Source: an uncultured Oscillospiraceae bacterium
GTDB taxonomy: Bacteria; Bacillota; Clostridia; Oscillospirales; Oscillospiraceae
DNA: 10,184 nucleotides
Assembly: GCA_944385305.1 (NCBI GenBank)
Contig: CALWWS010000047.1
Location: 1-10,184 of the forward strand
Direction of reading: 5' to 3'
Each line of letters begins with the position of its first letter. Within the stretch, counting starts at the first letter, position 1. Both the position numbers and the translations under genes were made by a program. Positions 2,611 to 9,433 of the stretch are shown piece by piece. A model generated the notes under the pieces. The model was not told where the DNA came from. It was given only the letters and a program-made list of their open reading frames with translations, and did not search any database.

Positions 2611-4065
2611 ATGCAGCTTGACAAGGATCTGCGCTCTGTGCAGGAGGTACGCCTGCTGCTGGAGCAGGCACGGCAGGCCCAGCGGACCATGGAGACCATG
2701 GACCAGGCTCAGCTGGACAAAATTGTATCCGCCATCTCCGCCGCCGCCGCGGCCAACGCCCGGCGGCTGGCCGACATGGCGGTGGAGGAGACCGGCTTCG
2801 GCCGGAAAGAGGACAAGGAGATCAAAAACCGATTTGCCGCCCTCACCCTCTACGAGGCCATCAAGGACGAGAAGACCCGGGGCATTCTGGCGGAAAACCG
2901 GGAAAAGCGCACCATCGACATGGGGGTGGGCGTGGGCGTTGTGGCCGGGCTGGTGCCCTCCACCAACCCCACCTCCACGGTGATCTACAAGGCCATGATC
3001 TGCATGAAGGCGGGCAACCCCATCATCTTCTCCCCCCACCCCAGCGCCCTCAACTGCATCCTGGAGACGGTGAATGTGGTGCGCCGGGCGGCGGAGGAGG
3101 CGGGGGCTCCCGCGGGGAGCATTGCCTGCATCCCCACTCCCACCCTGGAGGCCACCCAGGCCCTGATGAAGCACCCCTTCACCCGCCTCATCCTGGCCAC
3201 CGGCGGGGCGGGCATGGTGAAGGCGGCCTACTCCTCGGGCACCCCGGCCATCGGGGTGGGGGCGGGCAACGGCCCGGCCTATATCCACCGCACCGCCGAC
3301 CCGGCCCTGGCGGTGAAGCGGATTCTGGACTCCAAGACTTTTGACAACGGCACCATCTGCGCCAGCGAGCAGTCCATCGTGGTGGAGCGCTCCATGGAGC
3401 AGGCGGTGACCGCCCAGCTCAAGGCCCAGGGGGCCTACGTGCTCAGCGACGAGGAGCACCGCAGGCTCTCCGGCTTCATCCTCCGGCCCAACGGCACCAT
3501 GAACCCGGCCATTGTGGGCAGGAGCGTGGAGACGGTGGCCAAGCTGGCCGGGCTGACCCAGGTGCCCCCCACCGCCCGGGTGTTGGTGGCCCGGGAGACG
3601 GGAGTGGGGCCGGGCTACCCCTACTCCAGCGAGAAGCTGGGGCTCATCCTGGCCTACTATGTGGAGCCCGACGAGCAGGCGGTGCTCCGCCGGTGCGTGG
3701 AGATCCTGGAGTGGGAGGGGGCGGGCCACACCTTCTCCATCCACGCCCAGGACGAGGAGACGGTGAAGCGCTTTGCCCGGGCGGTGCCCGCCTCCCGGGT
3801 GCTGGTGAACACCGCCGCCTCCCTGGGAGGCATCGGGGCTACCACCTGCCTCTTCCCCGCCCTCACCCTGGGGTGCGGCGCGGTGGGCGGCTCCTCCAGC
3901 TCCAACAACATCGGCCCCCTGGATCTCATCAACATCAAGCGGGTGGCCTGGGGGGTGAAGGAGCTGGAGCAGCTGCGGGCCGGGGGCGGCGGAGAACATG
4001 CCGTCCAGGTGGACGAGGGGCTGCTGGGCCAGCTGGTGGAGCAGATTGTGAGGAGGCTGATGTAG
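2611..4065 (+). CDS. eutE: CoA-acylating acetaldehyde dehydrogenase EutE with C-terminal helical tail
   Basis: This enzyme oxidises acetaldehyde to acetyl-CoA with NAD+, trapping the volatile aldehyde inside the compartment. The ATG at 2611 is two bases after the eutL stop, with AGGGAGGTG (2597-2605) as ribosome site. The 484-residue product is a CoA-acylating aldehyde dehydrogenase. [17 protein letters not shown] (111-127) is the family signature near the cofactor site, [17 protein letters not shown] (194-210) and [14 protein letters not shown] (212-225) belong to the Rossmann part, and the catalytic Cys is residue 250 in [11 protein letters not shown]. After the usual domain end (about residue 455), the sequence runs through a RAGGGGEHA linker into an amphipathic helix ([18 protein letters not shown], 467-484). 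That tail looks like a C-terminal encapsulation peptide (inference). The gene sits between eutL and the BMC-H gene, and its AGG AGG codons (4051-4056) double as the next ribosome site. Confidence 0.94.
4051..4056 (+). promoter_or_regulatory. Ribosome binding site AGGAGG for the long BMC-H product
   Basis: AGGAGG sits inside the last codons of eutE, where it encodes two Arg residues with AGG codons, while CGG/CGC are the usual Arg codons here. It lies 10 nt before the GTG at 4067, which starts 1 nt after the eutE stop. This supports GTG 4067 as a real start and argues that the N-terminal extension of the shell gene is translated. Confidence 0.7.
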
Positions 4066-4066
4066 C

Positions 4067-4732
4067 GTGTCCGAGGTCAACGCCGACGGGGTGCTGGTCA
4101 ACCCCCAGGAGCACATTCTCCAGCAGGTGCAGACCCTCACAAACTCCCTGATGGCCGAGCGGCCCCAGGGAGCGGAGGAGGAGGAGCAGGAGCGCCCCGT
4201 CCTGCCCGGCGGACAGCCGGGGGGTGAGGTGGGGGGCGCCCCCCACCTGCCGGCGGACGCCCCCATGGGGGCCGCCCAGAGCCCCACCGCCCTGCCGGCC
4301 CCCGTTGTGCCGGCACAGACGGCCTCCCGCCGGGGCGGCGGGGGAAAAAAGCGGGAGACAAAGTCCAGGGGCGGCGCGCCCAAGAAGCCGCCGGAGGAAA
4401 ACAAATCAGACGACGACAACGACAGGAGGAAGAACAGCATGGCAAATACCAACGCGCTGGGTATGGTGGAGACAAAGGGACTGGTGGGGGCCATTGAGGC
4501 GGCCGACGCCATGGTGAAGGCGGCCAACGTCCAGCTGGTGGGCAAGGAGCAGGTGGGCGGCGGCCTGGTGACCGTGATGGTGCGGGGGGACGTGGGGGCC
4601 GTGAAGGCGGCCACTGACGCCGGAGCCGCCGCCGCCGAGAAGGTGGGGGAGCTCATCTCCGTGCACGTCATCCCCCGGCCCCACGCCGAGGTGGACAACA
4701 TCCTGCCCCACGGGGTGGGAGAGGGGCGGTAG
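4067..4732 (+). CDS. eutM: BMC-H shell protein (EutM-like) with 124-residue N-terminal extension, long form
   Basis: The C-terminal 97 residues (125-221) are a canonical single BMC domain. [40 protein letters not shown] and [13 protein letters not shown] correspond closely to EutM, the main hexameric facet tile of Eut compartments. The unusual part is residues 1-124, in frame with no stop. A helix-like start ([19 protein letters not shown], 13-31) is followed by an acidic run (EEEEQE), a Pro/Ala/Gly-rich stretch (44-86), a basic segment ([16 protein letters not shown], 88-103) and a mixed acidic/basic end ([16 protein letters not shown]). Third codon positions in this segment are as GC-rich as in neighbouring genes, and the GTG start has an AGGAGG site, so it is probably translated. 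Usual EutM has no such extension. An internal start at 4439 would give the plain shell protein. I cannot tell which form predominates; the BMC domain call is near certain, the long form less so. Confidence 0.72.
4424..4430 (+). promoter_or_regulatory. Internal ribosome binding site AGGAGGA for the short EutM product
   Basis: AGGAGGA ends 8 nt before ATG 4439, the point where the conserved BMC domain begins. In the reading frame it supplies two AGG Arg codons, which are uncommon here, suggesting the bases are kept for ribosome binding. Sequence and spacing are as good as those of independent genes in this operon. Confidence 0.75.
4439..4732 (+). CDS. eutM: EutM-type BMC-H shell protein, short form from internal start
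   Basis: Starting at ATG 4439, this nested product is 97 aa, the standard length of EutM, and contains the whole BMC domain: [20 protein letters not shown] at the start, the [13 protein letters not shown] pore-region strand and VHVIPRPH near the end. It shares frame and stop with the longer reading from 4067. EutM hexamers tile the compartment facets and form small pores for substrate and product. An internal start giving two shell products is known for PduB/PduB' of the propanediol compartment; applying that here is inference. If the upstream 124 codons prove untranslated, this is the complete gene. Confidence 0.85.
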
Positions 4733-4735
4733 CCC

Positions 4736-5476
4736 GTGGGCCTCATCACCCTGGAGGACGCCCGGCGCATGTCCGACCAGGGCACCCGGGGCCCGGTGGT
4801 GGTGCGCCAGGGGGAGGTGCTCACCCCCGGGGCGCGGGACTATCTCCAGGAGCACCGCATTCAGGTGGTCTACCCCCAGGGGCGGGAGACGGGGGAGGGC
4901 GGTCACGCCGCCCCCGCCAAGTACCGCACCCTCTTCGGGGCGGCGCTGAACGAGAAGCCGGAGCACATGACCCACCTGAAGGAGAACATCCTGGTCTTTA
5001 AGGACCACCCCCGCATTGCCTTCCGGGGCTGGATCGACCTGCTGGAGGCCCAGACCCTTCTGGCCCAGCGGGAGGCGGCCCAGGGGGGCTGGCCCAGGCT
5101 GGCGGAGGAGCTGGGGCAGGTGCTGGAGTTTGTGCGGCGGTATATCCGCTTTGACGTGCTGGGGGAGAAGCTGGAAAATCTCACCCTGTGCGGCATGGAC
5201 GCCGGACAGCTGCGGGAGTACTCCCACTACCCGGAAAAGCACTTCGGCCAGGGCCATTTCCTGCCCGCCCACACCGATCCCCCCGCTCTGCTGGCGGTGA
5301 ACAAGCTGCGGTGCGTGGTGCGGCAGACCGAGCTTGCCGCCTACGCCGCCTTCCGGGACGCCGACGGCAACGTGACACGGGGGGATATGATTCTGGGGCT
5401 CAACCGGCTGTCCTCCCTGATGTGGATTATGATGATTAAGCTAAAGGCGGGAAAGTATGAACACAGTCCAATGTGA
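4736..5476 (+). CDS. eutT: Corrinoid adenosyltransferase EutT (Cys-cluster-lacking Gram-positive type)
   Basis: EutT transfers the adenosyl group of ATP to cobalamin, making the coenzyme needed by EutBC. GTG 4736 lies 3 nt after the shell-gene stop, with a GAGAGGGG-like site upstream. Length is 246 aa (about 267 in enteric EutT). The N-terminal domain (ITLEDARRMSD, then VLTPGARDYLQEHRIQVVYP, 28-47) and the helical adenosyltransferase domain are both present. The latter carries MTHLKENILVFKDHPRIAFRG (78-98), LLAVNKLRCVVRQTELAAY (185-203) and LNRLSSLMWIMMIKL (222-236). The only cysteines are residues 152 and 193. The HX11CCX2C metal motif of enteric EutT is absent, as I recall for the metal-independent EutT class described from Listeria. 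It overlaps pduL by 20 nt, so the two are probably translationally coupled. Confidence 0.93.
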   Translation: MGLITLEDARRMSDQGTRGPVVVRQGEVLTPGARDYLQEHRIQVVYPQGRETGEGGHAAPAKYRTLFGAALNEKPEHMTHLKENILVFKDHPRIAFRGWIDLLEAQTLLAQREAAQGGWPRLAEELGQVLEFVRRYIRFDVLGEKLENLTLCGMDAGQLREYSHYPEKHFGQGHFLPAHTDPPALLAVNKLRCVVRQTELAAYAAFRDADGNVTRGDMILGLNRLSSLMWIMMIKLKAGKYEHSPM

Positions 5477-6080
5477 CGCGCTGGAGCGCCTGGCCCGGGA
5501 GATTACGGCGCGGATCACCGTGGAGGTGGAGGCCTCCGGGCGGCACGTGCACCTGAGCCGGGCCCACCTGGAGGCCCTGTTCGGCCCGGGCTACCAGCTC
5601 AATCGGGTGCGGGATCTCTCCCAGCCCGGGCAGTTTGTGTGCGCCGAGCGGGTGACCCTGGTGGGGCCGGGAGGAGAGATTGGAAACGTGGTGGTGCTGG
5701 GCCCCGAGCGGAAGCAGAGCCAGGTGGAGATCTCCCTCACCGACGGCCGGGCCCTGGGCATCGCCCCCCCGGTGCGCATTTCGGGGGATATTAAGGACAC
5801 CCCGGGGATCATCCTGCGCCGGGGAGATCGGGAGATCCGGCTGGAGCAGGGCGTGGTGGCCGCCAAGCGCCACATCCACATGACGCCCGCCGACGCGGAG
5901 CGCTGGGGGGTGGCGGACAAGCAGCAGGTGCGCCTGAAGTGCCTCACCGCCCGCCCGGTGACCTTTGAGGCGGTGGAGGTGCGAGTCTCCCCCCAGTTTG
6001 CCACCGCCGCCCACATCGACTACGACGAGGCCAACGCCTGCGGCTTTCAGAAGGGCGACCGAGGCATGATCCTGAAATGA
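5457..6080 (+). CDS. pduL: PduL-type phosphate acetyltransferase of the Eut compartment
   Basis: This is the microcompartment phosphotransacylase (PduL fold, often named eutD in Gram-positive eut operons; unrelated to Pta). It converts acetyl-CoA plus phosphate to acetyl phosphate and regenerates CoA within the shell. The 207-residue product carries the two zinc-binding repeats: SGRHVHLS (His30/His32) and AKRHIHMTP (His139/His141), with the further conserved His186 in HIDYDEANA. IGNVVVLGPERKQSQVEIS (76-94) and VRISGDIKDTPGI (106-118) are also characteristic. Residues 7-23 (DALERLAREITARITVE) are amphipathic and could act as an encapsulation peptide, as reported for PduL N-termini. The ATG at 5457 lies inside the end of eutT behind a GGCGGGAAAG-type site. 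The stop overlaps the next start as ATGA. Confidence 0.95.
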   Translation: MNTVQCDALERLAREITARITVEVEASGRHVHLSRAHLEALFGPGYQLNRVRDLSQPGQFVCAERVTLVGPGGEIGNVVVLGPERKQSQVEISLTDGRALGIAPPVRISGDIKDTPGIILRRGDREIRLEQGVVAAKRHIHMTPADAERWGVADKQQVRLKCLTARPVTFEAVEVRVSPQFATAAHIDYDEANACGFQKGDRGMILK

Positions 6081-8184: not shown

Positions 8185-8754
8185 ATGTACATGTATGAGG
8201 ACGGAAGAAGCCGCCGGGTGATCTTCCTGGCCCACTGCGCCCTCAACCAAAACGCCATCTCGGACGGCACCGCCGTCGCCCCCGCCCTGCTGGAGGAGGC
8301 GCTGGAGGCAATCCGCCGGGCGGGGGACGTGGGGATCGTGCAGATGCCCTGCCCCGAGCTGCTCTGCCTGGGCCTGGATCGGGGGGACCCGCTGGGGGCG
8401 GAGCGGCCGGTGACGGAGGAGAACACCCGCATCCGGGCCGCCCTGGGTGCGGAGGGGCCCCGGCAGAGGCTGGAGGAGCTGGCGGAGCAGGTTGCCTGCC
8501 AGATCCGCCAGTACCAGGACAGCGGCTTTCAGGTGCTGGGCATTGTGGGGATGAACCGCTCCCCCAGCTGCGGGGTGGACACCACCTCGGACGGGGGGCG
8601 GGAGGTGGCCGGACAGGGCCTGTTTGTGGGGCGCATTGCCGCCCTGCTGGCCAAGGAGGGGAGAAGCGTCCCCCTGCTGGGCCTGCGGGGGGAGGAGGAG
8701 ACCGCCCTGGCGGCCCTGGCGGCGCTGTGCCGGGGGGAGCGCCCCCGGCCCTGA
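8185..8754 (+). CDS. TudS/DUF523-like cysteine protein, function unassigned
   Basis: The 189-residue product starts at ATG 8185, with AAGGAGG 5 nt upstream (ATG 8191 is an alternative). It resembles the DUF523 / 2-thiouracil desulfurase-like group: IFLAHCALNQNA near the N-terminus (Cys18), VQMPCPELLCLGLDR (Cys56, Cys61) and VLGIVGMNRSPSCGVDTT (Cys129). In TudS-type proteins three conserved cysteines of this kind hold a [4Fe-4S] cluster, and the SPSCG loop is the most diagnostic element. Residues 74-110 are a charged helical region, and the C-terminal part (ALLAKEGRSVPLLGLRGEE, 153-171) is a helix-strand unit. No signal peptide or membrane span is seen. Its own promoter suggests a transcript separate from the eut run. 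Desulfurase activity is only a possibility from family resemblance; the substrate is unknown. Confidence 0.82.
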   Translation: MYMYEDGRSRRVIFLAHCALNQNAISDGTAVAPALLEEALEAIRRAGDVGIVQMPCPELLCLGLDRGDPLGAERPVTEENTRIRAALGAEGPRQRLEELAEQVACQIRQYQDSGFQVLGIVGMNRSPSCGVDTTSDGGREVAGQGLFVGRIAALLAKEGRSVPLLGLRGEEETALAALAALCRGERPRP

Positions 8755-8815: not shown

Positions 8816-9433
8816 ATGGATATGCAAACAGGATGGAACGAGAATCAGGCGGTGCTGCGGGGGACGGTGGCCGCCGCGCCGGTCCCCTCCCACGAGAACC
8901 ACGGGGTGCCCTACTACATATTTCCCCTGTGCGTGCTGCGGCTGTCCGGCTGGGAGGACAGGGTGAACGTCATTGCCGCCAAACCCCTGCTGGAGCAGTG
9001 CCCCCTCTCCCCCGGCATGGAGGTGGAGGTGCAGGGGCAGGTGCGCTCCTTCAACAACAAGAGCGGCCAGGGCAGCCGCCTGGTGATCACCCTCTTTGCC
9101 CAGGGCCTCCGCCCGGCCCAGGGGGAGGAGCACGAGAACAGCCTGCAGCTGGCGGGGGTGCTGTGCAAGCCCCCGGTGCTGCGGCGCACCCCCCTGGGGC
9201 GGGAGATCTGCGATCTGATGCTGGCGGTGAACCGCCGGTACGGCCGGGCGGACTACCTGCCCTGTATCGCCTGGGGGGCGCTGGCCCAGCGGTGCGGCGC
9301 ACTGGGGGTGGGGGACGGCATGCGCATCGGGGGCAGGCTGCAAAGCCGCCCCTACACCAAGGTGGAGCAGGGGGTGCCCCGGGAGCGCACCGCCTATGAG
9401 ATCTCGGTGATGAAAATGGAATTGGTGGAATAA
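8816..9433 (+). CDS. Tandem OB-fold, single-stranded DNA-binding-like protein
   Basis: From ATG 8816 (GGAG site at 8807-8810; ATG 8822 also possible) the product is 205 aa. It appears to hold two OB-fold units. The first, residues 11-98, has QAVLRGTVAAAPVPSHENHG, YYIFPLCVLRLSGWEDRVNV, SPGMEVEVQGQVRSFN and SRLVITLFAQGL. The second, residues 108-204, has NSLQLAGVLCKPPVLRRTPL, REICDLMLAVNRRYGRADYL, PCIAWGALAQRCGALGVGDG and MRIGGRLQSRPYTK, closely following the SSB (PF00436) strand order. It ends KMELVE, without the acidic DDDIPF-type tail that recruits partner proteins in housekeeping SSB, so it is more likely an accessory SSB-like protein. It sits 61 nt downstream of the TudS-like gene and ends directly at the bidirectional terminator. 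Nucleic acid binding is inferred from fold; its role is unknown. Confidence 0.82.
   Translation: MDMQTGWNENQAVLRGTVAAAPVPSHENHGVPYYIFPLCVLRLSGWEDRVNVIAAKPLLEQCPLSPGMEVEVQGQVRSFNNKSGQGSRLVITLFAQGLRPAQGEEHENSLQLAGVLCKPPVLRRTPLGREICDLMLAVNRRYGRADYLPCIAWGALAQRCGALGVGDGMRIGGRLQSRPYTKVEQGVPRERTAYEISVMKMELVE

Follow-up and report, generated by a model that had tools for sequence, protein, structure and literature searches.

In pduB, the nearest working model for the gene described here, one shell gene carries two in-frame starts; the longer product, PduB, has a helix (residues 1 to 22) and an unstructured linker (residues 23 to 37) ahead of the shorter PduB′ start, and its N-terminus is reported to be required for keeping shell and core attached (PMC12108088, PMC9132943). 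Tails on BMC-H proteins are also described. In a 2021 catalogue, the extensions of BMC-H proteins reach 200 residues and are commonest at the C-terminus (PMC8217296), and the Salmonella BMC-H protein EutK has a positively charged tail and affects where Eut BMCs lie (PMC12487888). The BMC-H-type proteins EutS/PduU, whose fold is permuted, have an N-terminal addition that forms a beta-barrel above their pore (PMC12058022), and Flavonifractor genomes are reported to carry one or two EUT2-like operons (PMC7710108). Among the titles and abstract openings searched, in a collection that covers few subscription journals, no N-terminally extended, dual-start EutM was described.

Here, we describe an extended eutM gene from an uncultured Oscillospiraceae bacterium which, judged by its sequence, has two starts, each with a ribosome site, as pduB does. 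In PduB, a trimeric BMC-T protein, the extension is 37 residues long, whereas the EutM extension (65 to 201 residues in the 29 extended genes compared below) precedes a single-domain BMC-H protein and contains a domain that also occurs alone. CcmM of the beta-carboxysome acts as a scaffold and is not one of the shell tiles. Its long and short forms are likewise N-terminal proteoforms with different jobs (PMC11005335). EutK and PduK also are BMC-H proteins with a tail beyond the fold, but their tail is C-terminal and that of extended EutM is N-terminal; unlike EutS/PduU, extended EutM appears to join a conserved domain with a predicted helix, and a linker, to an unpermuted fold. Extended eutM would be a natural, conserved case in which one BMC-H gene serves for both a plain and a tailed tile.

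The extended eutM gene lies in a eut operon

The window, meaning the whole stretch of 10,184 nt that was analyzed, lies on contig C47 of a 1.8-Mb genome in 266 contigs that is about 80% complete. Its genes are, in order, the end of eutB, eutC, eutL, eutE, the extended eutM, eutT, and eutD (PTAC type), followed by a small ORF, eutN, eutH, eutQ, a 2-thiouracil-desulfurase-like gene, and an SSB-like gene. By this content, the window is a eut operon. The features in and around eutM are as follows.

2611 to 4065, + strand: eutE (acetylating acetaldehyde dehydrogenase; TIGR02518, 696.9 bits)
4051 to 4056, + strand: AGGAGG, SD of the long form, in two AGG codons of eutE, 10 nt from the GTG
4067 to 4069, + strand: GTG start of the long form
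4067 to 4252, + strand: conserved N-terminal domain, residues 1 to ~62 (VSEVNADG...GGAPH), as indicated by alignments, a structure model, and dN/dS
4103 to 4156, + strand: predicted helix, residues 13 to 30, from the structure model
4253 to 4438, + strand: variable, basic, low-complexity linker, from charge and a pLDDT below 50 over most of it
4365 to 4398, + strand: possible RNA hairpin in the linker-coding stretch, weak here (z about −1.5) and clear in other genomes
4424 to 4429, + strand: AGGAGG, internal SD, encoding Arg-Arg in frame (two AGG codons of the extension), 9 nt from the ATG
4439 to 4732, + strand: eutM proper from the ATG start of the short form, a canonical BMC-H protein of 97 aa (PF00936)

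Rereading of the sequence confirmed the positions that an earlier note on this DNA had given for the frame, both SDs, and both starts. Positions 4067 to 4732 form a single open frame with its first stop at 4730 to 4732, the eutE stop lies 1 nt 5′ of GTG 4067, and the last eutE codons hold the SD of the extension. PF00936 matches residues 130 to 205 of the long form over profile positions 1 to 75 of 75 (100.3 bits) and is the lone BMC domain; the NCBIfam EutM score of the protein is 131.3 bits, slightly under the cutoff of 133. The EutM part aligns from its own residue 2 with C. difficile chain 4axj_A, contains both VKAAN and IPRPH motifs, and stops 16 residues past the Pfam match, so that it is without a C-terminal extension of the EutK type. 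The extension was said to have native third-position bias, and its GC3 is indeed 0.90, compared with 0.89 to 0.94 in seven eut genes of the window; AGG was rightly called uncommon, as it makes up 15 of the 155 Arg codons counted across eut genes. The source genome has one match to the extended EutM protein and three BMC matches. A search for sigma-70-like promoters and terminators at 3900 to 4800 gave none, and the window had no Rfam match.

Two other parts of the locus match TIGR02536, a eut hypothetical family: the first 45 residues of EutT (4736 to 4870) match positions 164 to 205, and the small ORF at 6077 to 6349 matches positions 55 to 131. It looks as if a protein of this family were split between the start of eutT and the small ORF.

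An internal start signal is conserved at the EutM boundary

Internal starts were compared in a table of 29 extended eutM genes, comprising 20 with an extension of the MSEVNADG type, eight of nine others, and L003, a gene from Candidatus Intestinimonas stercoravium. An SD precedes the internal ATG in 29 of 29 genes, which are related rather than independent rows, with a 6-nt match in 27, a 7-nt match in one, and an 8-nt match in one; its spacing to the ATG is 7 to 10 nt, and all three codon phases are represented. Within the same genes, matches of at least 6 nt precede 333 of the 5187 remaining in-frame positions, 26 of the 461 remaining in-frame start codons (for the most part a single GTG that recurs within EutM), and 1 of the 128 remaining in-frame ATGs. 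For G151, which lies outside the table, AAGGAGGAG precedes the eutM ATG. The exact pattern of the 16S rRNA end that bears the anti-SD was found in 6 of 10 genomes, but not in the incomplete genome of the window.

The sequence around the internal start is poor in GC and in structure. GC content is 0.46 versus 0.70 elsewhere in the same 29 genes, and the 50-nt folding energy is −3.2 versus −18.1 kcal/mol, with z above 1 in 29 of 29; the values at the window's own internal start are 0.525 and −6.0 kcal/mol. Moreover, codons 2 to 7 of EutM have a GC content of 0.49 versus 0.70 in the remainder. The residues directly ahead of Met-Ala-Asn-Thr-Asn include RR, KG, or ERS in 165 of 165 pooled fused MANTN proteins, in keeping with the three phases of AGGAGG/AAAGGAG. 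As the SD is kept while the encoded residues vary with phase, what is conserved is the ribosome site and not the peptide. We conclude from these comparisons that the internal SD and ATG are a start signal at the nucleotide level.

If only the long form were made, the internal ATG would be an ordinary methionine, and SD-like sequence can indeed occur by chance, as it does upstream of the in-frame GTGs inside EutM that make up most of the 26 of 461. Chance is hard to reconcile with an SD kept in every gene in three codon phases, with low structure and AT-rich first codons, and the ATG sits exactly at the plain EutM start of relatives. We consider a long form made alone to be extremely improbable. 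The earlier placement of an SD and ATG at the EutM boundary also held, as ATG 4439 is where plain EutM begins in relatives.

Upstream of the internal start, the region from −75 to −15 had a mean folding z of −2.5 and fell below −2 in 15 of 29 genes, versus a mean of −0.44 and 43 of 480 under that value in other parts of these genes, while its raw energy was scarcely stronger than that of the rest (−16.5 versus −14.8). The hairpin of the window itself is unremarkable (z of −1.5; 21 of 32 control stretches were equal or stronger). Selective RNA processing is reported to use processing or stabilizing hairpins (PMC4423207), and by analogy a hairpin in the linker as a processing or stabilizing element is a lead.

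The upstream start and the reading frame are conserved

All 20 MSEVNADG-type genes have GGAGG 7 to 13 nt 5′ of the upstream start, and the start codon is ATG in 19 of them and GTG in the window. The eutE stop overlaps the upstream start as ATGA in 12 of the 20 and is separated from it by 1 to 4 nt in the other 8, an arrangement that, by its layout, is classical coupling. Where the domain precedes eutM, it is in frame with EutM in 20 of 20 genomes, at 12 different extension lengths, and no domain out of frame ahead of eutM was found in a 400-genome sample of the family. The other two forward frames are open over the extension in 0 and 3 of the 20 genes, and the reverse-strand frames in 12, 9, and 0; as reverse frames are open in such GC-rich DNA, openness alone is weak evidence. 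In nine pairs, dN/dS was 0.10 to 0.51 for the N-domain, 0.14 to 0.80 for the linker, and 0 to 0.18 for EutM.

Frame-broken variants appeared in a protein search over lengths of 121 to 387 aa, a range that would conceal breaks nearer the N-terminus. The N-domain was present in 264 of 294 candidates, and PF00936 was present in 110 of the best 120 of the 264. The remaining ten were judged by eye; five looked frameshifted before or at EutM (P0130, P0128, P0139, P0169, and P0176), and five were truncated or chimeric. The first 66 residues of P0130 are identical to those of the window, and the protein apparently comes from the same species; its break lies in the linker, on a single 2,053-base contig, and could reflect either an assembly error or a real allele. 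The earlier note had held that frame breaks in homologues would count against it, and such breaks do occur, in 5 of the best 120 of the 264, whereas all 20 sampled genomes keep the frame. Frame conservation is given less weight because of the reverse-frame control and these five proteins. Frame-broken alleles keep the internal start region and therefore speak against an indispensable long form, not against the short form, and some strains may do without the long form.

Such alleles would suit a reading in which only the 97-aa EutM matters and a small upstream gene has lost its stop, making the fusion a tolerated by-product. The domain does exist as a free gene, and the linker spans what is the eutM leader in relatives with plain eutM. 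A by-product would not readily account for a frame kept in all 20 genomes at 12 lengths, for the lack of any out-of-frame domain before eutM in the 400-genome sample, or for PF00936 in 110 of the best 120 proteins, and we regard this explanation as quite unlikely. Both starts and the extension are thus kept across relatives, the comparison that the earlier note had proposed, and its claim of two functional starts in one frame is supported by the internal SD in 29 of 29 genes together with the frame in 20 of 20. We conclude that extended eutM very probably gives two products.

The tail comprises a conserved domain and a variable linker

The tail had been described as disordered, a description that suits the second half of the extension only, as residues 1 to ~62 are conserved and residues 13 to 30 are modeled as a helix. 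The N-domain of ~62 conserved residues is acidic, with a mean net charge of −7.6 over the first 45. The linker is variable and basic (mean charge of +7.2; +6 over residues 67 to 124 in the window; above 0 in 19 of 20 genes), and one genome, G366, is practically without it. An MSEVNA(D/E)G start, P13, A30, and GG-x-PH vary little or not at all across 28 aligned rows, fused and free; all are present in the window, whose domain belongs to the MSEVNADG family with its first Met coded by GTG. Comparison of the N-domain with Pfam, PHROG, and the PDB gave no relative, and the domain would represent an undescribed small-protein family.

AlphaFold2 predicted for the window protein a helix at residues 13 to 30 (pLDDT of ~70 to 76) and little else, in a model that was poor overall, BMC domain included (mean pLDDT of 51.7; pTM of 0.22). 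The helix is softly supported by this model. Its hydrophobic moment is 0.32, with shuffle P values of 0.056 for the window and 0.09 for the typed consensus, and the same test, run on the operon's presumed encapsulation peptides (a class marked by a short amphipathic helix on a flexible linker), gave 0.11 to 0.42 and hence has little separating power.

Extended eutM is found within one lineage

Used as a query against 400 family genomes, the 124-residue extension matched 29, of which 20 have the domain in frame before EutM and 9 have it as a separate gene of 59 to 85 aa. EutM itself (E ≤ 1e-40) was matched in 64 of the 400 genomes, and in 29 of the 64 an N-terminal open frame runs far beyond EutM length: the 20 of the MSEVNADG type plus nine whose extensions are diverged or unrelated looking. 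Across the order, an N-domain profile matched 8 of 394 genomes, all in Oscillospiraceae. On these comparisons, extended eutM is a lineage trait. A 31-residue core, EV.A(D/E)G..xNP...L.., recurs in the longer extensions of another genus (89.7% in profile comparison; E of 1.9e-6) and is doubtful in G131 (probability of 47.5%).

The eutM of G151 (L207) has a glutamine-rich, unrelated-looking N-terminal open frame ahead of its AAGGAGGAG and ATG, and N-terminal extensions of eutM may have arisen more than once.

Only three BMC matches were found in 7 of the 29 domain genomes, including that of the window. This is the count to be expected from two matches in EutL and one in the extended EutM, so that extended eutM would be the only BMC-H source there. 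These genomes form a set with extended eutM in which no second BMC-H gene was found. The possibility that the tailed form replaces EutK or EutS was weakened, since 15 family genomes with plain eutM likewise have only three BMC matches, and a minimal shell of this kind therefore does not require a tail.

The tail domain persists without a compartment

No BMC match was found in 8 of the 9 genomes with the free form; in the remaining one, G159, BMCs occur elsewhere and eutM is plain. The free gene has an SD of at least 5 nt in 8 of 9 (3 nt in G074), and all nine genes, like the 16 free-form proteins aligned, share the same first eight residues. Its dN/dS is 0.13 to 0.76 in six pairs. Values below 1, together with the identical first eight residues, led us to reject a frozen relic left after eut loss. 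The small protein appears to be kept by selection without the compartment, and its partner is therefore probably not eut cargo.

An SSB-like gene follows the free gene on the same contig in 8 of 9 genomes, at ~0.1 kb in seven and at ~1 kb, with another gene between, in G159; in G074 the contig ends. By eye, without scoring, inverted repeats lie directly 3′ of the free gene's stop in six gaps, which weakens the case for one operon, and the adjacency is read as positional. The SSB-like gene is present in 84 of 91 family genomes; it also lies 3′ of eutQ, both in the window and at 6 of the 13 further eut loci read. In the window it spans 8822 to 9433 and encodes 203 aa, with PF00436 in the second half.

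On a tree of the SSB proteins, many of whose branches are weak, the free state needs three changes, at least two of them forced by well-supported branches, and would have arisen or persisted in about three places among the fused ones. We infer that the fused state came first, that the eut operon was then lost, and that the small gene was retained; the opposite order is possible. A fuller history would have a free small protein joined to the sole BMC-H protein by stop loss, the tag docking at its old partner and being freed again after eut loss, with the eutM leader, hairpin and ribosome site included, turned into a protein linker. We regard this history as unlikely.

A tailed minority of EutM may face outward

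The sequence comparisons show a canonical EutM cistron that starts at ATG 4439 and has a strong, unstructured ribosome site of its own, and 5′ of it a conserved small-protein domain, tightly coupled to the eutE stop, whose frame runs stop-free through the eutM leader into EutM. Most EutM would come from the internal start and build the facets, and a smaller share, tailed, would enter the same hexamers by the normal BMC-H fold and expose the N-terminal domain by way of a flexible, basic linker. The partner of the domain is probably an ordinary cell component, because the free gene is kept in relatives without BMCs. The tail would then most likely act as an adaptor between this partner and the compartment surface, for location or inheritance, standing where the C-terminal tail of EutK stands in Salmonella; partner and purpose are the least certain parts. 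Overall, we think it probable that eutM is a nested dual-start gene whose tailed product is a minority in shared hexamers, with the tail as an outside adaptor.

The same two products could instead include a lumenal grip, the tail fastening shell to core by an amphipathic helix on a linker, as the PduB N-terminus does. The helix predicted at residues 13 to 30 would suit such a role, as would the window's EutQ, which aligns solely to positions 117 to 232 of the 233-position EutQ profile and therefore is without the N-terminal half that in Salmonella is reported to link shell and cargo (PMC12487888). The tail helix, however, is at most weakly amphipathic by the shuffle tests above (0.056 and 0.09), and the BMC-H N-terminus lies on the concave face, which is reported as cytosolic in recombinant shells and is disputed for native ones, whose orientation is called ambiguous (PMC6109187). 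The main reason to prefer an outside adaptor is that the domain is kept without a compartment, in 8 genomes lacking BMCs. We consider a lumenal grip possible but somewhat unlikely, and a cellular partner at the outer face is weakly favored by analogy. Extended eutM makes testable the direction of the N-terminal face in native BMC-H proteins and the tethering or placement of a minimal Eut shell, and the tail would be a ready-made tag for engineered shells.

Other tailed or interrupted proteins were seen. Seven other BMC-H genes of Oscillospiraceae, L199 to L205, have long C-terminal tails, which are acidic and end in a conserved segment, MPVVKLR...MTRKEIRFAKKEEL..AI in most. This segment looks like a small SAP-type module. 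EutC matches are broken into several parts, with additional stretches that are repeated or inserted, in the relatives L113 (~10490 to 12013), L117 (~12780 to 13882), and L115 (~8442 to 8696).
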